Shown: positions 8,955 to 41,018, counted from the stretch's first letter. The stretch is 41,271 nucleotides of DNA from Pseudomonadota bacterium (GCA_947490265.1 CANLGQ010000005.1:1-41271), one strand, 5' to 3'. Numbers and translations: made by a program. The notes: generated by a model from the sequence alone, not told the origin.

Positions 8955-10172
8955 TCAGCCGGCGTACATCCGGATGGTGTCGGCGGCTTCCTGGGCCAAC
9001 GCCGTGCAGGTATCGAGGTCCGGGTGCCGCACCACGAGGTTGCCGTCGGAGAGGAAGGTGGCCTTCCAATCGCGCCGGGGCGCGCCCACGGGAAGGAGGT
9101 CGGCCCGCGCTATCCATTTCCCGTGCCTGCGCCGGAACTCATCCATTCCGACGATGTGGCGAATGCGTCCGTGGCCGCTCGCCCGCTTGAAGATGACGGC
9201 TGCGTTCCACGGGCGGCGAAGGTCGGCTTCAAAGTGACCATGACAGACGACGCGCGCCCACTCGACGAACAGGTCGATGTCGTTCGCGTAGTTCATCAGA
9301 TCGACCATCGAGGCGCCGGGCGAGCGGCAGGCGACTTCGCCAAAGACGGCTTCTCCCGAACCGTTAAGGAACCACTCCATGTGGGTGAAGCCGGACCCCA
9401 TCTCGAGCGCCTGGAGCACCCCGTGGCCGAGTCGGCTCCCGGCGCGAACCGGCGCGGCTTGGGGATCCCGTAAGGTTAGGATAATCGGGCTGATCCACTC
9501 GTTTTGACGCGCAATGAGCGTGTTCGGGTGGTAGATCGAAACGCTCGTGAACACCGGGCGGCCAGCGACGCACAGCGTCTCGAACGTGTATTCCTGACCT
9601 TCGACGAACTCTTCGACCACCACTTCCGGGACGTGCGCCGTGGCGAGCAACGCCTGCTCCAGGGCGGGGGCATCTTGGACCTTGAAGGTGTCCATCGAAC
9701 CTGCGCCCGCGGTTGGCTTGACGACGAGCGGAAACCCCAGCGCGCGGGCCGCTTCGCGGATTTCGCCGACGGTACTTGCGCGGCGGCTGCGGGGCGCGCG
9801 CAGGCCCGCCGCACCCACCCGCTCCTTCATCAATTGCTTGTCGCGAAACCCGGCCACCACGCTGGGCTGCATGCCGGGGACCCCCAGCCGCTCGCGGAGG
9901 CGGGCCGCCAAGGTCGTGACGACCTCCCACAACCCCTCCACCCGATCCGGTCGCCTCCCGCCGAGCCAGGTCTCGACGCGGCGGATCACGTCGTCCTCGT
10001 CGAGGATCCGGGGGACGTGCAGGTAGCCGGTGAGGCGGCGGCGGAGCGACCCGGGAAGCTGGTCGGGCGGCGTGTCGCCAACGCCCCAAACGCGAGCGCC
10101 GACCTCGGTCAGGCCGCGGGTGAACTGCTGCATGTCCGGGGGGTAGGCCGGTGCGAGGAACAGAACGTCCAT
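8955..10172 (-). CDS. ATP-grasp domain ligase
   Basis: 405-residue ATP-grasp protein. These enzymes join a carboxylate to an amine or thiol through an acyl-phosphate. The N-terminal domain starts MDVLFLAPAYPPDM. The ATP-grasp fold follows: VVKPTAGAGS (ATP-binding Lys and flexible loop), then VVEEFVEGQEYTFETL (hinge that contacts adenine). The metal-binding strand is FGEVACRSPGAS, as in the subfamily with EVAARPPGA instead of EINPR. Substrate is not evident. The ATG at 10172 is preceded by GGAG; the frame is open upstream to 10508, but that overlaps the divergent NRDE gene and looks like noise. Only 44 bases separate the two divergent starts. The exported TPR protein gene follows 30 bases downstream. 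Confidence 0.85.
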   Translation of the reverse strand: MDVLFLAPAYPPDMQQFTRGLTEVGARVWGVGDTPPDQLPGSLRRRLTGYLHVPRILDEDDVIRRVETWLGGRRPDRVEGLWEVVTTLAARLRERLGVPGMQPSVVAGFRDKQLMKERVGAAGLRAPRSRRASTVGEIREAARALGFPLVVKPTAGAGSMDTFKVQDAPALEQALLATAHVPEVVVEEFVEGQEYTFETLCVAGRPVFTSVSIYHPNTLIARQNEWISPIILTLRDPQAAPVRAGSRLGHGVLQALEMGSGFTHMEWFLNGSGEAVFGEVACRSPGASMVDLMNYANDIDLFVEWARVVCHGHFEADLRRPWNAAVIFKRASGHGRIRHIVGMDEFRRRHGKWIARADLLPVGAPRRDWKATFLSDGNLVVRHPDLDTCTALAQEAADTIRMYAG

Positions 10173-31980: not shown

Positions 31981-32091
31981 CGGTCGCCCCTGTATCTCGG
32001 GTCGCTGGGGTCCGGATGGGGCGCGGGCGCTGCTCGGACGCGACCGACGCCGTCTCCGCTCCCACCCGCCACTGCCCTCCCCCCGGGCGGC

Positions 32092-32120
32092 TTGGATCGC
32101 TTTGAGCTTGGTGGTACGAT
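32092..32120 (+). promoter_or_regulatory. Candidate sigma70-type promoter for the PepSY-like gene
   Basis: TTGGAT (32092-32097) and TACGAT (32115-32120) are separated by 17 bases and lie 15 bases before the ATG at 32136. The matches to consensus are 3 of 6 and 4 of 6, so this is only a candidate. It sits in the 155-base divergent region between the PBP gene and the PepSY-like gene. Confidence 0.3.
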
Positions 32121-32135
32121 CCAGGCGAGGTTGCG

Positions 32136-32567
32136 ATGCGGCTCGTCTGGCTACTTTGCTCGTGGAGTGGGTGGGCCGCCGATCCGGTCCCGGCCCCGAT
32201 TGCCGCCACCGTCGCCCGCGAATGGCCGAACGCGCAGATCCTCGAGGTCGAGGACGAGGGCGGAGCGGTGGAGGTCGAGCTCCAGGACGGCGCGGCGCGG
32301 GTCGACGTCCTCTTCCGCGCCGACGGGACCTGGATCGAGGTGAAGGTCGCTGTGGCCGCTTCGGAGCTACCGAAAGCCGTGCTCGCCGCGGCCAGCCGCG
32401 AGGGCCGGGTGACCGAGGCCGAGCGCCGATCGACCCCCGACGGTCGCGCCGACTGGGAGATCGAGGTCCGCGACCGCCAAGGTTCCCGCGTGCTTCACCT
32501 CGACGATGCCGGCCGCATCCTGCGGAGCAGGGTCGAGGACGACGAGGAGGACGACGGCGAGAATTGA
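32136..32567 (+). CDS. Small exported PepSY-like protein
   Basis: 143 residues. The leader MRLVWLLCSWSGWAADP ends in a plausible signal peptidase site (GWA-AD). The mature part has two similar halves of the PepSY-like type (PF11396): WPNAQILEVEDEGGAVEVEL with FRADGTWIEVK, then GRVTEAERRSTPDGRADWEI with LDDAGRIL. Such domains bind or inhibit partners in the periplasm; no enzyme activity is expected. The C-terminal end is strongly acidic (EDDEEDDGEN). The ATG at 32136 has GCGAGG upstream. It is convergent with the Cys-rich lipoprotein gene, and the 87 bases between them show nothing notable. Confidence 0.75.
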   Translation: MRLVWLLCSWSGWAADPVPAPIAATVAREWPNAQILEVEDEGGAVEVELQDGAARVDVLFRADGTWIEVKVAVAASELPKAVLAAASREGRVTEAERRSTPDGRADWEIEVRDRQGSRVLHLDDAGRILRSRVEDDEEDDGEN

Positions 32568-32654
32568 TGGGACCGACGGGCGCCGGCGCGGGTTTCGCCT
32601 GGGCCGATGTGGCGCTTCAGCCTCTCCTCGGTGGCCGCAGCCGCGCCCCGCTGA

Positions 32655-33533
32655 TCACGGCTCGTGCGCCACCAGCACGATGGGCCCATCGAGGCACCGG
32701 GTGCCGTCCGCGGTCGGAGCGCAGGAAGCGCCGTCGAGCGGTCCCTCCTCGAACGCGTACAGGTGGTAGCGCAGGGCACCCCCATGCCCGTCTTGCAGCA
32801 GCACCAGGTCGTAGTGGCGGGTACCGGTCCAAATATGGGCCCAGTCCCTGAAGTTGTGGTGACTCGCGTACCAACAGAGGTCCGAGGCTATGGTGACGTC
32901 GGCCACCTCGCCGAGCGGCCCGATCTGCGCCTCGAGCAGCGTCCACTCGGTGTTGGCCAGGCTTCCGACCCCTTCGTTGCGTCGCACCAGGCGCACGCAC
33001 ACCTGGCCGTCCGGCGACTCGAGCTGCAAGACCTCCCCGTCCGCCTGGAACGGGAGGGTCGGGTCGAATCCGCAGTCGGCCCCGGAGCCGCTTCCGATCC
33101 CGCCCGACCCGGCACCGTCGCACTCGAACTCCGACGACGGCGGGACCCAGTCCGCCGGGGTTGCGCATTCGTCGCTGTCGGGACAGGCCACCGCGACGCA
33201 CTCTTCGAGTTGAACGAAACCGACCGGTCGAGCGACGAGGTCGAGCTCGACCAGGCAATCGTTCACGCCGACGATGCCATTCTGCCGCACGCAATCGACC
33301 AGGCACGCGCACGCGGCGTCGGCCTCGCAATACGGAAGCAGATCCGAACACTTTTCGTCGACGCACTCGGAGCAGTCGCCGAGCGGTGGGCCCGGCTCGA
33401 GGGTACATTCGAAAGGCGAGGGATCCACTGGGTCGGTCCCCCCGGTCGCGTCCGACCCCGCCGAACCCGAGCGGTGGCAGGACGCCGCCGCGAAGGCCAC
33501 CGCGACGAGCCAGAGTGGATGGAGGGCGCTCAC
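32655..33533 (-). CDS. Cys-rich lipoprotein
   Basis: 292 residues. The leader LWLVAVAFAAASC ends in a lipobox with Cys19, so it is a lipoprotein. A Gly/Ser/Asp-rich spacer (SGSAGSDATGGTD) precedes a Cys-rich domain with 12 Cys within about 85 residues (GDCSECVDEKCSDLL, DAACACLVDC, EECVAVACPDSDEC), probably disulfide-bonded. A second Ser/Gly linker (SGGIGSGSGADC) leads to a beta-rich C-terminal domain (LYAFEEGPLDG). The pattern is common among surface lipoproteins of myxobacteria and relatives; no precise family was recognised. The GTG start at 33533 places the leader correctly; the open frame upstream to 34511 is an artefact of GC content. The gene follows the beta-propeller lipoprotein by 29 bases on the same strand. 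Confidence 0.75.
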   Translation of the reverse strand: MSALHPLWLVAVAFAAASCHRSGSAGSDATGGTDPVDPSPFECTLEPGPPLGDCSECVDEKCSDLLPYCEADAACACLVDCVRQNGIVGVNDCLVELDLVARPVGFVQLEECVAVACPDSDECATPADWVPPSSEFECDGAGSGGIGSGSGADCGFDPTLPFQADGEVLQLESPDGQVCVRLVRRNEGVGSLANTEWTLLEAQIGPLGEVADVTIASDLCWYASHHNFRDWAHIWTGTRHYDLVLLQDGHGGALRYHLYAFEEGPLDGASCAPTADGTRCLDGPIVLVAHEP

Positions 33534-33562
33534 GTCCCGAAGGTACCACGACCGGCCCTCGG

Positions 33563-34465
33563 TCAGTGAAGCCGCGGCTTCTCGCCGACCCCGAGTTGGA
33601 TCCTCCGCACGGTGTCGTTCCCGAACTCGACGGCATAGATATCCGTCGGTTCCCAGCCGAACGCCTCCTCGCCCCACGCGAAGTTGCCAAGTCCAAAGTT
33701 CGAGTATGGCTCGTACACCAGGGTTTCGGGCCCGACCCCCTCCGCGGTGTACCGATCGATGCGCGCCTCCGACCACCAGCCGGCGTACAGGTTGCCACAC
33801 GCGTCCACCGACAGGCCGTCGATCCCGTTGCCGGCATCGGCGATGAAAACCCGCCGCTCGCCGATCGGTTCCTTGGTGAGGGGGTCGATGTCGATCTCGT
33901 AGATGTGCCCCTCGCCGGTCGCGGCCACGTAGAGGCGATCGTAGCTGCGGTTGAACGTCAGCCCGTTCGGTCGCCCGATCCCGCTGGCGATGACGTGCAG
34001 GGTGCGGGTGTCGGCGTCGTACCGCTGAACCCGATCGCCATTGAGCTCGCCGAACCACACGGAGTGATCGTCTCCGATCTCGATGCCGCTCGGCGTCGAC
34101 AGCCCACCGACGAGAAGCTCCTTGGAACCAGTCTTTGGGTTGATCCGAAAAATCGCGTTCGTCGCATACTGCGCAGACGCGAGGGTTCCGTCCCACCCCA
34201 TCAGCCGGAGACCGGCTTCCACGCCACTGGACGGCATAATTGGCTTGGCGTTCCCGGAGAGGTCGGTGCTCCACAGGGTGGTCGCGAAGTCGGCGCCGAC
34301 GAGGTTGCCCTCGCCGTCGAAGGCGATGTCTTCGTTGGCGACCGCCGGAAAGGGCTCCGAGGCCAGGGGGCTGGCCGGCAAGTGGTCGCAGTCCACACCG
34401 GGCCGTACGGGCGGCGGTTGCGCCCTGCAGCCCGACAGCCCCAGCAGCCAGAAGCCGATCCGCAT
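33563..34465 (-). CDS. SMP-30/gluconolactonase-like beta-propeller lipoprotein
   Basis: 300 residues. The leader MRIGFWLLGLSGC ends in a lipobox (LSGC, Cys13). The mature protein is a six-bladed propeller of the SMP-30/NHL/strictosidine synthase type, visible as repeated blades: NEDIAFDGEGNLVGADF, TPSGIEIGDDHSVWFGEL, RPNGLTFNRSYDRLYVA, GIDGLSVDACGNLYAGWW. Family enzymes are lactonases or hydrolases with a metal at the hub; the Glu/Asn/Asp ligands could not be assigned by eye. The ATG at 34465 is preceded by GGAGG with good spacing. Likely an operon with the Cys-rich lipoprotein gene. Divergent from the broken GFA gene, with 32 bases between starts. Confidence 0.82.
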   Translation of the reverse strand: MRIGFWLLGLSGCRAQPPPVRPGVDCDHLPASPLASEPFPAVANEDIAFDGEGNLVGADFATTLWSTDLSGNAKPIMPSSGVEAGLRLMGWDGTLASAQYATNAIFRINPKTGSKELLVGGLSTPSGIEIGDDHSVWFGELNGDRVQRYDADTRTLHVIASGIGRPNGLTFNRSYDRLYVAATGEGHIYEIDIDPLTKEPIGERRVFIADAGNGIDGLSVDACGNLYAGWWSEARIDRYTAEGVGPETLVYEPYSNFGLGNFAWGEEAFGWEPTDIYAVEFGNDTVRRIQLGVGEKPRLH

Positions 34466-34497
34466 CGCCTCCGATAACCCGAGGTAGGCTGCGCGCC

Positions 34498-34675
34498 ATG
34501 GTCGAAGCCACCTGTCACTGCGGGGCCGTCCGAGTCGTGATCGCCAGCGACCCCGCTCTGGCCCGAGGGCGACCGGATGGGGATCAACGCGCGACTCCTG
34601 CACGCTCGATCGGCGACTTCGCGCCACGGCAGGGTTGACCGTCCACCGGACCGAGCGGTACGCTGCGAGCGCTGA
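34498..34675 (+). pseudogene. GFA-family (DUF636) gene remnant with internal deletion and frameshift
   Basis: From the ATG at 34498 the frame reads VEATCHCGAVRVVIAS, the conserved zinc-binding start of the glutathione-dependent formaldehyde-activating enzyme-like family (PF04828), but stops at 34638 after 46 residues. One base out of phase, from about 34556 to a stop at 34673-34675, the reading is EGDRMGINARLLHARS, the typical C-terminal part of the same family. The middle of the domain, with the CxxC pairs, is absent. So an in-place deletion of roughly 80 codons joined the two ends out of frame. The next 164 bases (34676-34839) hold no recognisable gene, repeat or tRNA and lead into the acquired cassette. 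Between 34466 and 34839 there is therefore no intact gene. Confidence 0.7.
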
Positions 34676-34839
34676 CCTTCGCGAGCTGGCCTGGAGCTCG
34701 AACAGGCGGCCGAACGGCAACCCGGCCGGGTTCGCCAGACACCTCGCGGCGCACATCCCTGAGGAACGAGACAGGATAGGTCGCGTGGGACCCCGTCGGC
34801 CGTGGCCATCGGTGTCGGGCCAGCGGGAGGGGGCGAGGC

Positions 34840-35625
34840 ATGGTTGAGAGAAAGTGCTTGACCCCCGCCGATTTTACGCGGGCTCGCCAGAGATTGTTGC
34901 GCATGCACTTCGAGGCGGGGGTCGGCCACCTCGGCGGCAACTTATCGGCGCTCGACGCCATGTTGGTGCTGTTCCACGAGCACCTGGGGCCCGCCGATCC
35001 GTTCATCCTCTCCAAGGGTCACAGCGCCGGCGCGCTCTATGTGGCGCTGTGGAGCGTGGGCCGGCTGGGCGAGGACGACCTCGTCCAATTCCACAAGGAC
35101 GATACCCTCCTGGCCGGACATCCCCCGGCCAGGGGCGTGGCCGACATTCTCTTCGCCACCGGGAGTCTCGGGCACGGCCTGTCGCTCGCGGCGGGCACGG
35201 CGCTCGGCCTCCGGCTGCTGCGCCGGGCGGGCGAAGTGGTGTGCCTGACGTCCGATGGGGAATGGCAGGAGGGCTCCACCTGGGAAGCGCTGATCTTCGC
35301 CTGTCATCACCAGCTCGCCAACCTCACCATCCTGGTCGATCACAATGGGCTGCAGGGTTTCGGCAGCACGGCGGACGTCGCCTCGATGTCCCCGCTGTGG
35401 GACAAGCTGCAGGGCTTCGATCTCGACGTCGAGGTGATCGACGGCCACGATCCCCAGGCCCTGCGCGCTGCGCTCGCCGTGCGGCCCAACCGCCCGCGCG
35501 CGATCATGCTGCGCACGGTGAAGGGTCACGGCGTCAGCTTCCTCGAAGGCCGGATGGATTCCCATTATCTGCCGCTTAGCGAGGCGCAGTACCACCAGGC
35601 GGTGGCGGAGTTGGTCGCGCGATGA
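34840..35625 (+). CDS. Transketolase-like N-terminal (TPP pyrophosphate-binding) subunit
   Basis: 261 residues, equivalent to the first third of transketolase as a separate subunit. TPP and metal ligands are visible: H30 in GVGHLGGNLS, H61 in LSKGHSAGALY, SLGHGLS (109-115), and the GDG-like motif as SDGEWQEG (138-145) ending at Asn169 in VDHNGLQG. The first Gly of GDG is Ser. Transketolases move two-carbon ketol units between sugars; split pairs also occur in surface-sugar and natural-product clusters. The ATG at 34840 has GGGAGGGGG upstream. The stop overlaps the start of the second subunit (ATGA). Given the neighbours, a role in making a branched or extended sugar for a surface polysaccharide is more likely than the pentose phosphate pathway. 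Confidence 0.9.
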   Translation: MVERKCLTPADFTRARQRLLRMHFEAGVGHLGGNLSALDAMLVLFHEHLGPADPFILSKGHSAGALYVALWSVGRLGEDDLVQFHKDDTLLAGHPPARGVADILFATGSLGHGLSLAAGTALGLRLLRRAGEVVCLTSDGEWQEGSTWEALIFACHHQLANLTILVDHNGLQGFGSTADVASMSPLWDKLQGFDLDVEVIDGHDPQALRAALAVRPNRPRAIMLRTVKGHGVSFLEGRMDSHYLPLSEAQYHQAVAELVAR

Positions 35626-36518
35626 GGAAGCAGCTCTGCGATGCGCTGGTCGCCCGCGCCGGCAAGCCGGACATGGTGTTCCTCACCGGCGATCTGGGCT
35701 TTATGGCGCTGGAACCGCTGCAGGCGGCGATGGGAGAGCGTTTCATCAACGCCGGCGTCGCCGAGCAGAACCTGGTCAGCGTCGCCGCCGGGATGTCGCG
35801 GCTCGGGCTCGAGGTGTGGACCTATTCGATCGCGCCCTTCCTCTACGCGCGGCCTTTCGAGCAGATCCGCAACGATGTCTGCTTTCACGGCCTGCCGGTG
35901 AAGCTCATCGGCAACGGTGGCGGGTATGGCTATGGCGTGATGGGATCGACGCATCATGCGATCGAGGATTATGGGGTGCTGCTCACCCTTCCGGGCATGC
36001 ACGTGATCGCGCCGGTGTTCGACGAGGATGTCGGATCCGCGGTGGCGCGCGCAGGCGAGGCCACGGGGCCGTGCTATCTGCGCCTCGGCCGCGGCGAACC
36101 GCCGAAGGGTTTTCTCGTTCCCGCCTACGCGCCGTGGCGATGCCTGGTGGAAGGCGAGGGCGCGGTGGTGATCGCCTTCGGTCCGTTGGCTGGCACGTAC
36201 ATCGAAACCGCGAAGGCGCGCGGCGCCAGCCTGTGGGCCGTCGCCGAACTGCCGCTGGACGCTTCGCCGCCGCCCGCCGCGCTGCTGGCGGCCATCGCCC
36301 AGGCGAAATTCATCTGCATCGCCGAGGAGCATGTGCGCCAGGGCGGCCTGGCTTCCGCGCTGATGCTGCACCTCGCGCTGGCTGGCGTCGCGCCCAGGCA
36401 GATCTCGCACCTCTATGCCCGCGCCCACAATTTCGGGCGATATGGTTCGCAGGGCTATCTGCGCAGGCAGGCTGGGATCGATCCCGCCAGCCTCGCCGCC
36501 GCGCTGGACCAGGGCTGA
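35622..36518 (+). CDS. Transketolase-like C-terminal (pyrimidine-binding and regulatory) subunit
   Basis: 298 residues, completing the split transketolase. The Glu that activates the TPP aminopyrimidine is E48 in INAGVAEQNLVSVAAG. The aromatic pocket and DxxxxTHHAxED region appear as YGVMGSTHHAIEDYGVL, which supports sugar-phosphate binding. The C-terminal transketolase domain follows from about 165 (GAVVIAFGPLAGTYIE, KFICIAEEHVRQGGLAS). Key residues are present, so with its partner an active alpha2-beta2 enzyme is expected. The ATG at 35622 overlaps the N-terminal subunit stop. The SDR-GT2 gene begins one base after its stop. Confidence 0.9.
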   Translation: MRKQLCDALVARAGKPDMVFLTGDLGFMALEPLQAAMGERFINAGVAEQNLVSVAAGMSRLGLEVWTYSIAPFLYARPFEQIRNDVCFHGLPVKLIGNGGGYGYGVMGSTHHAIEDYGVLLTLPGMHVIAPVFDEDVGSAVARAGEATGPCYLRLGRGEPPKGFLVPAYAPWRCLVEGEGAVVIAFGPLAGTYIETAKARGASLWAVAELPLDASPPPAALLAAIAQAKFICIAEEHVRQGGLASALMLHLALAGVAPRQISHLYARAHNFGRYGSQGYLRRQAGIDPASLAAALDQG

Positions 36519-36519
36519 C

Positions 36520-38484
36520 ATGGCCGAACTCGACGCGTTCATCTCCTCCCTGCGTGGACCCATCCTGGTCACCGGCGCGTCGGGCTTTGTCGGCTCCAAC
36601 CTGTTCAAGGCCATCGCGCGCGTGCGCCAGGACGTGTTCGCGCTGGTCCGGCGCGAGAAGAACTGGCGCCTCGCCGAGGTCAGCGACGACGTGATCGTCG
36701 CGGTCGACCTCAACGATCCGGCTGCCGCACGCAACCTGGCCCACACGCTGAAGCCCCAGACCGTGTTCGACTGCGCGGCCTATGGTGCCTACGCCTTCGA
36801 GGCGGACCAGGCGCTGATCTACCAGACCAACTTCACCGCGATCGCGAACTTCGTGGAGTTGCTGTCGGTTGCGGGCTTTGCGGCGTTCGTGCACGCCGGC
36901 TCGTCGTCCGAGTACGGCGCCAACTGTTCGGGGCCTGAGGAGGACGCGGCCTGCCAGCCCAACAGCGCTTATTCGGTCTCCAAGCTCGCCTCCGCGCACT
37001 ATCTCCGCTTCACCGGCAAGCAACGGCAATTGCCCTGCGTCAACCTGCGGCTCTATTCCGTCTACGGCCCGCTGGAGGATACCTCGCGCGTCATCCCAAA
37101 CCTCCTGCGCAAGGGGCTGGCCGGCACCTATCCGCCCTTTGTCGATCCCAGAACCTCCCGCGATTTCATCCATGTGGACGACGTGGTGTCCGCCTTCATC
37201 CTCGCCGCCGCCAAGATGAACCCGTCGATCTATGGCGAGAGCTTCAACATTGGCACCGGCGTCAAGACCACGATCCGCGACCTCGCCGAAACGGCCCGGA
37301 GGGTGTTCGCCATTCCGGGCGAGCCGGAATTCGGATCGATGGAAGCGCGCGCCTGGGACCTCGCCGAATGGTACGCCAACCCGGCAAAGGCGGAGCGGTT
37401 GCTGGGCTGGACCGCGAAGGTGTCGCTGGAGCAGGGGCTGCGGTCCACGTCTAGCTGGATCGCGGGCCTCTCCGAGGCCGACATGGCGGCCAGCACCAAG
37501 CGGGCCGCCGCCGCGCGCAAGCGGTCGATCTCGGCCATCGTCGCCTGCTATCAGGATGCGCAGGCCATCCCGATCATGCACCAGCGGCTGACGGAGACCT
37601 TCCGCAAGCTGGGCGTCGACTACGAGATCATCCTGGTGAACGACGGGAGTCCCGACAACAGCGCCGAGGTGATCCGCGAGATCAGCGCGAGAGACCCCCG
37701 CACCATCGGCATCACCCACTCGCGCAATTTCGGATCGCAGATGGCGTTCCGCTCGGGCATGGAATTGTCCAGCATGGATGCGTGTGTGCTGCTGGACGGC
37801 GACCTGCAGGATCCGCCGGAATTGATCGCCGATTTCTATGCCCAGTGGGAGCAGGGATTCGACGTCGTCTATGGCCGGCGCGTCAAGCGCGACATGCCGT
37901 GGCGCTGGGCGATCCTGTACAAGCTGTTCTACCGCATCTTTGCCGCCTTTAGCTATGTGAAGATCCCGGTGGACGCGGGCGACTTCTCGCTCATGGACCG
38001 CCGCGTCGTCGGCTGGCTGCTGAACTGCCCGGAGCGCGACCTGTTCGTGCGCGGCCTGCGCGCCTATCTGGGTTTCAAGCAGACCGGCGTCGACTATGTC
38101 CGGCCCGAGCGCATGTTCGGCCGCTCGACCAACAACTTCTTCAAGAACGTCGGTTGGGCCAAGAAGGGGATCTTCTCGTTCAGCGACACGCCGCTGACCA
38201 TGCTGACCACGGCCGGCGTGGGGATGCTCGGCGTGTCCATCCTGCTCGCCGCGATCACCACACTCCTGAAGGTCATCGATCCCAGCATCGCACCGCGGGG
38301 CATCACCACGCTGCTGATCGTCGTGCTGATGTTCGGCTCCGTCAACCTGTTCGCTATCGGCCTCGTGGGCGAGTATGTCGCCAAGATCATGGCCGAGGTG
38401 AAGGGCCGCCCGCGGCTCGTGCGCGCCGCCCTCATCCGCAACGGCGTCGAGACGCAGCTCCTTCCCGATGGGAAGGTCGCTTGA
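36520..38484 (+). CDS. Fusion: NAD-dependent epimerase/dehydratase (SDR) plus GT2 polyprenyl-phosphate glycosyltransferase
   Basis: 654 residues, two enzymes in one chain. Residues 12-320 are an extended SDR of the nucleotide-sugar epimerase/dehydratase type: VTGASGFVGSN (Rossmann GxxGxxG at 19-25), GSSSEYG, and the YxxxK pair Y151/K155, with DFIHVDDVV. Residues 335-654 are a GT2 of the DPM1/ArnC/GtrB type: VNDGSPDN (D375), the DxD-like LDGDLQDPPE (426-428), and two membrane segments (about 559-583 and 595-621) ending in EYVAKIMAEVKGRP. The GT2 part would load a sugar onto polyprenyl phosphate on the inner face of the inner membrane, and the SDR part would act on that sugar or its nucleotide precursor. 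The linker (SEADMAASTKRAAAARKR) is short and charged. The ATG at 36520 is one base after the previous stop. Confidence 0.92.
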   Translation: MAELDAFISSLRGPILVTGASGFVGSNLFKAIARVRQDVFALVRREKNWRLAEVSDDVIVAVDLNDPAAARNLAHTLKPQTVFDCAAYGAYAFEADQALIYQTNFTAIANFVELLSVAGFAAFVHAGSSSEYGANCSGPEEDAACQPNSAYSVSKLASAHYLRFTGKQRQLPCVNLRLYSVYGPLEDTSRVIPNLLRKGLAGTYPPFVDPRTSRDFIHVDDVVSAFILAAAKMNPSIYGESFNIGTGVKTTIRDLAETARRVFAIPGEPEFGSMEARAWDLAEWYANPAKAERLLGWTAKVSLEQGLRSTSSWIAGLSEADMAASTKRAAAARKRSISAIVACYQDAQAIPIMHQRLTETFRKLGVDYEIILVNDGSPDNSAEVIREISARDPRTIGITHSRNFGSQMAFRSGMELSSMDACVLLDGDLQDPPELIADFYAQWEQGFDVVYGRRVKRDMPWRWAILYKLFYRIFAAFSYVKIPVDAGDFSLMDRRVVGWLLNCPERDLFVRGLRAYLGFKQTGVDYVRPERMFGRSTNNFFKNVGWAKKGIFSFSDTPLTMLTTAGVGMLGVSILLAAITTLLKVIDPSIAPRGITTLLIVVLMFGSVNLFAIGLVGEYVAKIMAEVKGRPRLVRAALIRNGVETQLLPDGKVA

Positions 38485-39383
38485 GTACACGCGGCTGTCC
38501 GGTCTGTGGCGCACCGGCGGAAGGCGCGCCGGCGTTTCACGAGAGCAACATCGATCCGAGCAAACTCTCGGGCTTCAGCTTCGCCTCCCGCAAGACGCCG
38601 GAATTCATGGCCCATCGCCTCGTGCAATGCCCCGAGTGCGAGCTCGTCTATGCCGACGAACCGCCGGACGAGGCGGTCCTGGCCAACGCCTACCACGTCG
38701 CCGACTTCGATTCCTCGGAGGAAGCCGCTGACGCCGCCGCGGCCTATCTCCTCGCCATCCGACCGACGTTGGATGCGCTGAAGGGCCGGGGGGCCGCGCT
38801 GGAGATTGGTGCCGGCACCGGCATCTTCCTCGAGCTGCTGGCGGGCGAGGGGTTTTCCGAGCTCGTCGGCGTCGAACCCTCGACTGCCGCGATCGAAGCG
38901 GCGCCCGTCCGCCGCCGCGCATGGATCCGCGAGGGCATTTTCCGCGAAGCGGATTTTGCGCCTGCTTCGTTCGACCTGATCTGCTGCTTCATGACGATGG
39001 AGCATGTGCGGGATCCACGGGTGATCTCCGACGCCGCCTTCCGCCTGCTGCGCCCCGGCGGCGCGTTTGTCACCGTGACGCACGATTACCGCGCACCGGT
39101 CAACCGGCTGCTGGGCAAGCGCTCGCCGATCATCGACATCGAGCATATGCAGCTCTTTTCTCAGCGCAGCATCGCCCGCCTGTTCGAGACGTCGGGCTTT
39201 GCTCGGGTCGGCGTGCGCGCCTTCGTCAACACCTACGCCCTGAGCTACTGGATGCGCCTCGCCCCGCTGCCGGCGCTGCTGAAGACGGCGGCGGGCGGAT
39301 TCCTGCAGGCGACAGGTGCGGGCAAGGCCAAGCTGGGCGCCAATGTCGGCAACCTGATCTCCGCGGTCTTCAAGCCGGGCTAA
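38481..39383 (+). CDS. Class I SAM-dependent methyltransferase with N-terminal zinc ribbon
   Basis: 300 residues. Two CxxC pairs near the N-terminus (CPVCG at 6-10, CPECE at 50-54) form a probable zinc ribbon, as in the sugar C-methyltransferase and surface-polysaccharide methyltransferase families. The SAM-binding fold starts at ALEIGAGTGIF (motif I, about 106-116), with the acidic VGVEPS, then SFDLICCFMTMEHV and LLRPGGAFV. The large C-terminal domain of TylCIII-type C-methyltransferases is absent, so O- or C-methylation cannot be told apart. The TTG start at 38481 overlaps the previous stop (TTGA) and has GGAAGG upstream; no better start exists. Last gene of the acquired block. Confidence 0.85.
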   Translation: MSTRGCPVCGAPAEGAPAFHESNIDPSKLSGFSFASRKTPEFMAHRLVQCPECELVYADEPPDEAVLANAYHVADFDSSEEAADAAAAYLLAIRPTLDALKGRGAALEIGAGTGIFLELLAGEGFSELVGVEPSTAAIEAAPVRRRAWIREGIFREADFAPASFDLICCFMTMEHVRDPRVISDAAFRLLRPGGAFVTVTHDYRAPVNRLLGKRSPIIDIEHMQLFSQRSIARLFETSGFARVGVRAFVNTYALSYWMRLAPLPALLKTAAGGFLQATGAGKAKLGANVGNLISAVFKPG

Positions 39384-39482
39384 GGCGTGTCCGCGCGGCC
39401 GGGCGCGCGCGCGAGTTGGCGTTGCGCGCATTGGCGGCTCCTGCGCCCGGGTCGCCGCGGTACGATGGGAAGGGAGGTTCTG

Positions 39483-41018
39483 GTGCCCGTCGGACGCTAC
39501 TGGACCGAGCTCACGCGTACCCTGGGGAGAATGTGGGCGGAGGGCGCCGAAAGTGTCGCGACGGCCTGGTCGGACGCGGAGGCGACCGGCGTGGGGCTCG
39601 AGGAGCAGCTTCGGGCGCGGTCTGCTGAGATCTGGCGAGAGCTCGTCGAGGATTGGGTCGTCAGTTGGCCGATCACCCGTATCCAGCCGGTGGTCAACCA
39701 ATTCTACGGCCACGGTGCGTTCATGGGCGCCGCGCCTCAACTCTTGGAAGATCAAGCGTGGAGGCGGATTCTTGCGTTTCTCATGCCCGACGTGCATGTG
39801 GCGGCGCTCGCGGCGGTGAACAGCGGGGTGCGGACCGCGAAGCTCATCCCGATGTTCGAGAACAACCCGGTGATGTGCGCTTTTGGCGTGTGGCAGGCCG
39901 CGGCGGCCCGGGCCGATGGCGGGCAGGGGCGCTGCGATCTCGAGGGCATGGAGTGGGACGTCTTTCTGGATGGTCGATGGATCACGAAGTACCAAGCCGC
40001 TGAATCCGATCTCGCTACGGGTGCGGCCGTCGCGGCGCTGGTCGACGGGATGTTGGTGGCGCATGCGTCCACGACCGACACCGTGCAGGAGGCGTTGGGG
40101 GTCGACCAGTACCGGGACGTTCGGACGACGCCGAAAACGGGCATGGGGGGGGTCGAGGCCACCCATTGGCTCGACCTGTTCGGGCGCGCCTTCGAGCTCG
40201 CCCTTGCCCCCGACCTCGACGCCGCCATCGTCGCCATGGCGATCGAGCCTCGAAGCGCACAAACGGAACACTGTATGCGCCACACTTTCGCGGAGCCGCG
40301 CCCGTGGTCGAAGGCGATCGAGGCCTATCGGAGGGTGACGGGCCGTGCCGAGTTTTCGGTGGTCCTCGAGGTCAAGTCGCTGCGCTCCACCCCGCTTCTC
40401 CTGGCCGATCTCGTGCTGGAGCTGAACCGGCGCGGCGTGCACGTCGCGGCAGTCGGCTCGTTCCAGCTCCAGGAGATCGCCGGCGTGTCGAGACAGCACC
40501 AGCGCCTCGGACCGCGGGAGTACCCTGGGCCTCGCGAGGTCCTCTTCTTCCACTTCGCCGGTGACGTACAGGCCGCCGCTGAGCAGGGCTCCTTGCAGCG
40601 CGGACAGTCCGTCATGTTCAACGGGGCGAGCTTGATCGACGCCGACGCGCCTCCGCCGGAAGGGGGGCCGTTCGACGTGCGGTTGACCTACCGGATCCGA
40701 GACGAGGTCGTCCTGGAACTGGCCGAAGTGGCAGGGGCGCTCGACCTTCAAGTGGGGATCTACGTCCAGGAGGGCGACACCGATGCCACGGCGGCCCACT
40801 TGCTGGCCCAGCTGGTGAACGCGCGCGAAGACGTGTTCTCCCTCGGCTTTGCCTGGGGCGGACTCCGCGATCTGGCCGTCGACTTCGGGCATTCCGAGCA
40901 CGATCACCGGGGCTACGGTGGACAGCGCATGCTCGAGTTCGTCGGTCGGGCCCGACAGTGGGTGACGGCCCGGGAGCGGGCCGCGGCCGCGCGCGAGCGA
41001 GAGGGCTCGGACGAATGA
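39483..41018 (+). CDS. Hypothetical protein, 511 residues, coupled to surE
   Basis: No family recognised. No signal peptide, membrane segment or simple repeats. The N-terminal 60 residues are helical and acidic (WTELTRTLGRMWAEG). The middle has conserved-looking hydrophobic strands and aromatic motifs (VVNQFYGHGAFMGA, FENNPVMCAFGVWQAA, FLDGRWITKYQA). The C-terminal half looks alpha/beta (LADLVLELNRRGVHVAAVGS, EVLFFHFAGDVQAAA) and ends in a basic/acidic helix (RAAAAREREGSDE). The GTG at 39483 was chosen because a GGAGG lies five bases upstream (39473-39477); an ATG at 39465 is the alternative. Its stop overlaps the surE ATG (ATGA), so translation is probably coupled. Codon use is native, unlike the preceding block. 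The 99 bases upstream hold a TACGAT at 39461 that could be a -10, but no -35 at the right distance. Confidence 0.72.
   Translation: MPVGRYWTELTRTLGRMWAEGAESVATAWSDAEATGVGLEEQLRARSAEIWRELVEDWVVSWPITRIQPVVNQFYGHGAFMGAAPQLLEDQAWRRILAFLMPDVHVAALAAVNSGVRTAKLIPMFENNPVMCAFGVWQAAAARADGGQGRCDLEGMEWDVFLDGRWITKYQAAESDLATGAAVAALVDGMLVAHASTTDTVQEALGVDQYRDVRTTPKTGMGGVEATHWLDLFGRAFELALAPDLDAAIVAMAIEPRSAQTEHCMRHTFAEPRPWSKAIEAYRRVTGRAEFSVVLEVKSLRSTPLLLADLVLELNRRGVHVAAVGSFQLQEIAGVSRQHQRLGPREYPGPREVLFFHFAGDVQAAAEQGSLQRGQSVMFNGASLIDADAPPPEGGPFDVRLTYRIRDEVVLELAEVAGALDLQVGIYVQEGDTDATAAHLLAQLVNAREDVFSLGFAWGGLRDLAVDFGHSEHDHRGYGGQRMLEFVGRARQWVTARERAAAAREREGSDE

Follow-up and report, generated by a model that had tools for sequence, protein, structure and literature searches.

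A split-transketolase cassette conserved across more than twelve phyla and its possible role in making branched envelope sugars

Carbon branching of envelope sugars is known from the YerE-type systems (yersiniose A, erwiniose, caryophyllose), in which a ThDP enzyme branches an NDP-4-keto-deoxysugar for use in envelope glycans, with ketoreduction proposed to follow (PMC12247030, PMC4753412). YerE enzymes belong to the decarboxylase superfamily, draw on alpha-keto acids and act on CDP-3,6-dideoxy sugars. Transketolases, on the other hand, have only been proposed to add a hydroxyacetyl group to keto-sugars, in the pathways to miharamycin and amipurimycin, and a 2025 review records no demonstrated case with a ketone acceptor (PMC12247030). 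The portion of that review which draws on Krug et al. counts 13 further candidates, all of them Streptomyces split transketolases and none characterised. Recruitment of split transketolases to non-phosphorylated acceptors has a precedent in azinomycin biosynthesis (AziC5/AziC6), where the enzyme acts on a non-phosphorylated aldehyde, and in the LysW-linked Streptomyces enzymes; in these cases the acceptor is an amino-acid semialdehyde (PMC9570651).

The locus described here resembles each of these systems in part. It lies in a window of 41,271 nt (the whole stretch of DNA analysed), which is contig 5 of an assembly that is 77.5% complete and 2.6% contaminated, and consists of four genes on the plus strand at 34840-39383, joined by overlaps or a 1-base gap. 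A preliminary description of this DNA had already called the genes fused, overlapping or 1 base apart, and its coordinates proved exact. The first gene, TK-N (34840-35625, 261 aa; Pfam Transketolase_N, 9.7e-24), encodes the ThDP-binding half of a split transketolase and overlaps by four bases (ATGA) with TK-C (35622-36518, 298 aa; Transket_pyr, 1.4e-21), which encodes the pyrimidine-binding and C-terminal half. One base further on begins a fusion gene (36520-38484) whose product combines an extended SDR domain of the ketoreductase/epimerase type (36520-37515; Epimerase, 3.8e-45) with a GtrB-type GT2 domain ending in two C-terminal hydrophobic helices (37516-38484; Glycos_transf_2, 3.6e-23). 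The last gene (38481-39383; Methyltransf_23, 7.1e-27) starts with TTG in a four-base overlap (TTGA) with the fusion and encodes a class I SAM methyltransferase. Its N-terminal zinc ribbon, recognised in the preliminary description, is directly legible as two CxxC motifs (CPVC...CPEC), and we predict the protein to be a sugar methyltransferase. ARAGORN also reported a tRNA-Ser(cga) at 38857-38929 on the minus strand, antisense within the methyltransferase gene, which we take to be a probable false positive.

Both transketolase halves find their nearest solved structure in the Carboxydothermus split-gene transketolase (PMC7661550): TK-N matches best the N-terminal chain of 6yak (1.4e-49), and TK-C matches the C chain of 6yaj/6yak (3.6e-32). 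Since both halves match transketolase-like enzymes and not the decarboxylase-superfamily ThDP fold, the cassette falls outside the YerE family in spite of a predicted yersiniose-like branching logic, and a further difference from YerE-type systems is the fusion of its SDR with a polyprenyl-phosphate glycosyltransferase. We also considered that the split might mark a broken gene, and this could be ruled out because the split is kept in every related cassette.

Numbering residues after E. coli TktA as reference, we compared the active sites of 74 cassettes. The ThDP, Mg and catalytic/donor residues H26, H66, H100, D155, N185, H261, E411 and H473 are all present in the window, and the same eight are retained in 73-74 of the 74 cassettes; since a kept H100 indicates a ketol donor rather than pyruvate (PMC7661550), use of a two-carbon ketol is strongly suggested by the alignment. 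H461 is replaced by Gly in all 74 cassettes, the window included, and position 469 is never Asp (Met in 68 of the 74, and in the window), while R520 is retained in 46 cassettes including the window. We take S385, H461, D469 and R520 to be the sugar-phosphate acceptor-site residues of the E. coli enzyme; S385 (replaced in a first alignment, gapped in a second) and R358 were unreliably aligned and are given no weight. The ordinary housekeeping transketolase of the same genome retains the H461/D469 acceptor residues. At 461 and 469 the catabolic split transketolases carry Ser and Leu and the LysW-type enzymes His and Tyr, patterns unlike those of both the cassette and the housekeeping enzyme. In the Carboxydothermus enzyme the usual TH...GED acceptor segment is intact, but the window protein no longer has the usual residues at 461 and 469. 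This pattern indicates a rebuilt sugar-phosphate acceptor site, and the split enzyme, with a predicted transketolase mechanism, appears not to be a pentose-pathway enzyme.

The same residues bear on a reading in which the transketolase would merely supply a heptose route with its precursor (sedoheptulose-7-phosphate or some other intermediate of the pentose pathway), the SDR-GtrB protein then using GDP-heptose. Such a route is hinted at by GDP-heptose genes near four loci (hddA, hddC and a gmhA-like gene within 10 kb in L056, L061 and L084; hddA and hddC in L057). A rebuilt sugar-phosphate acceptor site speaks against it, as does the ordinary transketolase already present in the window genome, and HddA was found in only 5 of 19 cassette-bearing genomes, which rules out GDP-heptose as a general substrate. 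We consider this reading very improbable.

Turning to the fusion protein, 43 aligned fusions share an invariant Rossmann Gly, S129-S130-E131-Y132-G133 and Y151xxxK155, which together identify an extended SDR. The TDE motif of the dehydratases is replaced by SSSE in this family while SYK is kept, so that the domain does not qualify as an NDP-sugar 4,6-dehydratase. An AlphaFold model of the whole fusion (pLDDT 85) has two long helices at its C-terminus (556-586 and 595-627), and a Foldseek search with its GT2 half returned GtrB 9nyc as the top match; phmmer against the PDB gave GtrB sll0501 (2.4e-58) and ArnC (2.1e-38) for the same half, all as expected for a GtrB/ArnC polyprenyl-phosphate glycosyltransferase. 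The SDR half matched C4-epimerase-type extended SDRs by Foldseek (TM to target up to 0.88), and that its closest solved structures are mostly C4 epimerases counts against a ketoreductase. At the same time, we tentatively favour a ketoreductase partnering the transketolase, which seems a better reading of this domain than an oxidase or epimerase. The preliminary description had envisaged a coherent pathway: two carbons are transferred, an SDR acts on the sugar, and the product is loaded on polyprenyl phosphate and methylated. We retain all of this apart from the oxidase or epimerase role that it gave to the SDR.

Departures from the standard fusion are instructive. In three Myxococcota/Deltaproteobacteria loci (L091, L096, L099) the extended SDR is gone, and a lone GT2 is followed by a classical SDR; in L061 it is the catalytic Tyr of the fused SDR that is missing, and the operon contains a second, intact SDR. 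Because these loci swap in or keep an SDR, we suggest that a redox step by such an enzyme is needed. Within this region of L061 (8128-12732) the intact SDR lies just upstream of the fusion gene and is 37% identical to the window SDR, a case of fused-domain decay with functional replacement. The SDR-GT2 pair also has remoter homologues, at 31-32% identity, in Labrenzia, Leisingera and Palleronia; no transketolase accompanies them, and the genes run GtrA, polytopic protein, rfbF, rfbG, DegT, C-methyltransferase, SDR, GT2, a setting in which the SDR would reduce a CDP-4-keto-sugar. Three such loci (L134, L135, L136), on plasmids of marine Alphaproteobacteria, are conserved Gtr clusters that bring along genes for a CDP-4-keto-sugar and a C-methyltransferase as well as an SDR-GT2 pair.

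The first relatives of the cassette to be found were on the Methylobacterium aquaticum plasmid pMaq22A_1p and in G027, a genome of the same phylum as the window, which has all four genes in the same order at 45-64% identity. A search for the gene order elsewhere, as the preliminary description had proposed, then showed that the combination is anything but private: a scan of a genome collection with the TK-C alignment alone recovered 80 loci in more than 12 phyla, and nearly all complete loci carry the split transketolase and the SDR-GtrB fusion, often with a methyltransferase, in the order of the window. Going by record titles, the carriers belong to Pseudomonadota, Verrucomicrobiota, Planctomycetota, Myxococcota, Acidobacteriota, Armatimonadota, Lentisphaerota, Nitrospirota, Cyanobacteriota (Nostoc punctiforme), Bacillota (Paenibacillus), Bacteroidota, Ignavibacteriota, Bdellovibrionota, FCPU426 and Eremiobacterota, and include two CPR bins. 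A fusion of at least 600 aa directly follows TK-C in 69 of 83 loci; the other 14 comprise nine truncated by a contig end, two CPR loci with the SDR only and three with a GT2 but no extended SDR. Where there is room for it (52 loci), a homologue of the zinc-ribbon methyltransferase adjoins the cassette in 35 cases and a methyltransferase of some kind is present in 43. The cassette is thus a widely conserved gene set. The two CPR bins (L088 and L094; Roizmanbacteria and Levyibacteriota) have TK-N, TK-C and the SDR without the GtrB part, and in a Betaproteobacterium (UKL13-2; L023:9316-9992) TK-N is apparently frameshifted near position 9519.

What the transketolase might act on is suggested by neighbouring genes. 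Only three of the 83 loci (L051, L067, L076) have rmlA and rmlB inside the operon. In one of them, from Paenibacillus silviterrae (L067), the genes run polytopic protein, methyltransferase, rmlA, rmlB, TK-N, TK-C, SDR-GT2, methyltransferase, spaced by -4 to 40 bases; searches of the genome turned up no RmlB besides the product of this rmlB and no RmlC or RmlD, so that dTDP-4-keto-6-deoxyglucose would be made without a visible rhamnose route. RmlD was likewise not detected in the genomes of the two other loci, which have rmlB-rmlA in the operon, the L051 genome being small and incomplete. More generally, RmlB turned up in 18 of the 19 cassette genomes that were checked, all but the incomplete genome of the window, and among control genomes RmlB and RmlD had matches in the same eleven; as RmlB is common anyway, its co-occurrence is consistent with this acceptor but no proof of it. 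The likely acceptor is an NDP-4-keto-sugar, probably dTDP-4-keto-6-deoxyglucose.

An alternative is that the transketolase uses an aldehyde acceptor to give an extended sugar or ketose, with no carbon branch, which the SDR would epimerise before loading. The characterised transketolases that we found in the literature all take aldehydes, the split ones included (PMC7661550; azinomycin, PMC9570651), and an SDR fold nearest to C4 epimerases would suit such a role. At the same time, the cassette has no kinase or nucleotidyltransferase to activate a free or phosphorylated ketose, the phosphate-acceptor residues are gone, and the activating genes, where they are found in the operon, are rmlA and rmlB, whose product bears a ketone. 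We regard chain extension as unlikely, and continue with addition to a ketone.

Building on the gene content, gene order, residues and folds, we infer the following route, in which acceptor, product, order of the SDR and methyl steps and final target are those we propose. Host RmlA and RmlB (or equivalents) would first provide an NDP-4-keto-6-deoxysugar, most likely dTDP-4-keto-6-deoxyglucose, as suggested by the relatives. With hydroxypyruvate or an ordinary ketose phosphate as donor, the split transketolase would add a two-carbon ketol to the presumed C4 ketone acceptor, yielding a 4-C-(hydroxyacetyl) sugar. The SDR may then reduce the branch ketone, or the sugar, to give for example a 4-C-(1,2-dihydroxyethyl)-6-deoxyhexose; the fused domain, GtrB-type by family, would move this putative substrate onto polyprenyl phosphate, and the zinc-ribbon methyltransferase would methylate the sugar. 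The pathway could be completed, in relatives, by a flippase (GtrA or EamA-type) together with a GT-C-like polytopic protein. On balance we lean towards the view that the cassette serves surface glycosylation by making a carbon-branched, O- or C-methylated nucleotide sugar and transferring the sugar to polyprenyl phosphate. We would give even odds to the broader idea that polyprenyl-phosphate-linked, C4-branched 6-deoxysugars, made by a ketone-accepting split transketolase encoded in a mobile cassette, are widespread and undescribed envelope sugars in more than 12 phyla.

As the preliminary description had maintained, no described pathway seems to combine these parts: in the open-licence literature on O-antigens, nucleotide sugars, GtrA and dihydroxyethyl-sugars we found no published pathway with this gene set. 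Miharamycin and amipurimycin come closest in their use of a split transketolase for a proposed hydroxyacetyl transfer to a keto-sugar, but they and the 13 related candidates belong to Streptomyces secondary metabolism, and the portion of the review that treats them mentions no SDR-GtrB fusion or envelope genes (PMC12247030). If our reading is correct, this would be the first ketone-accepting transketolase outside Streptomyces antibiotics, with candidate phyla and Gram-positives among its carriers. The cassette would provide dozens of candidate ketone-accepting transketolases with a named acceptor, several of them in culturable bacteria, of use to enzymologists seeking tertiary alcohols with a hydroxymethyl ketone; for glycobiologists it predicts a class of branched surface sugars, and spread of the cassette across phyla would be expected to change surface glycans. 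A split transketolase gene also occurs with methyltransferase and aminotransferase genes in the wps-2 exopolysaccharide cluster of Actinoplanes missouriensis (PMC13390465).

The cassette belongs to the Gtr-type (flippase plus GT-C) glycan-decoration systems, the last two parts of which were not found adjoining it in the window, so that it falls short there of a full three-component system. It shares with GtrA/GtrB/GT-C systems the GtrB-type GT2 and, beside many cassettes, the flippases (GtrA, EamA-type) and polytopic proteins; it differs by the SDR joined to its GtrB and by its coupling to a transketolase, and hence would make its own unusual sugar. Flippases lie near about 20 of the 83 loci (GtrA in at least 15, EamA-like in four), and GT-C-like polytopic proteins are encoded near the cassette on the same strand in 42 of 83, although the structure model of one candidate GT-C neighbour (pLDDT 45) was too poor to use. 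In L087 (9004-10962) a GtrA domain is fused to a polytopic GT-C-like membrane protein directly after the cassette. As neither a GtrA nor a GT-C gene adjoins the window cassette, and no GtrA turned up elsewhere in the assembly, one might suppose that the cassette is a recent passenger, imported but idle for want of the flippase and transferase it requires. But all four reading frames are open with every catalytic residue retained, the assembly is only 77.5% complete, and many relatives also have no flippase or GT-C gene nearby, which makes an idle cassette quite improbable.

The cassette is foreign to its host, as the preliminary description had claimed, and this is supported by the tree, codon use and an empty site in a relative. 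Compared with 26 native genes of the window, the cassette prefers TAT among Tyr codons (61% vs 27%), CTG among Leu codons (56% vs 32%) and GGC among Gly codons (68% vs 46%), and leave-one-out scoring assigned 4/4 cassette genes to the cassette model and 26/26 native genes to the native model; the native ORFs had been chosen with a cassette-trained codon model, which biases against the separation seen. The sharp codon change noted previously is therefore one of synonymous choice and not of GC3, which is the same inside (0.84-0.90) and outside (0.81-0.91), so that the GC3 comparison then proposed would have missed the foreignness. In a tree of 64 concatenated cassettes the window sits inside a Pseudomonadota-dominated clade (97 and 100, both starred), nearest to Ramlibacter at 70% identity, and a grouping with the same-phylum G027 was rejected (p-AU 1e-115). 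Among 284 genomes of the phylum searched, only the window genome and G027 have the full fusion at high identity. Since the cassette is nested among Pseudomonadota homologues, it was imported, by transfer from a pseudomonadote-like donor of another phylum.

In an assembly as fragmented and incomplete as this one, the foreign codon use and the affinity to Pseudomonadota might also arise if assembly or binning had brought in DNA of another organism. Both flanks, however, consist of genes with native codon use. Contig 2 of a same-genus genome (G285) is collinear with the window over 5574-31980 and continues about 0.2 kb further with surE, and the surE at the right edge in the window is 77% identical to this gene, which adjoins the same left neighbour there. 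With host genes on either side, surE and the left neighbour, the cassette is part of a real host contig, and an artefact is scarcely credible. Between these conserved neighbours G285 is missing a variable segment of about 9 kb (31981-41014), which comprises the cassette together with two genes upstream of it and a 495-aa gene downstream. We found no convincing insertion repeats or attachment site at the cassette ends, and no flank synteny in order-level relatives carrying the downstream gene. Beyond the cassette, the variable segment contains genes for a Cys-rich lipoprotein and an SMP-30-like protein together with the 495-aa gene, which has no Pfam match; of the 63 genomes of the order, 13 contain relatives of this last gene.
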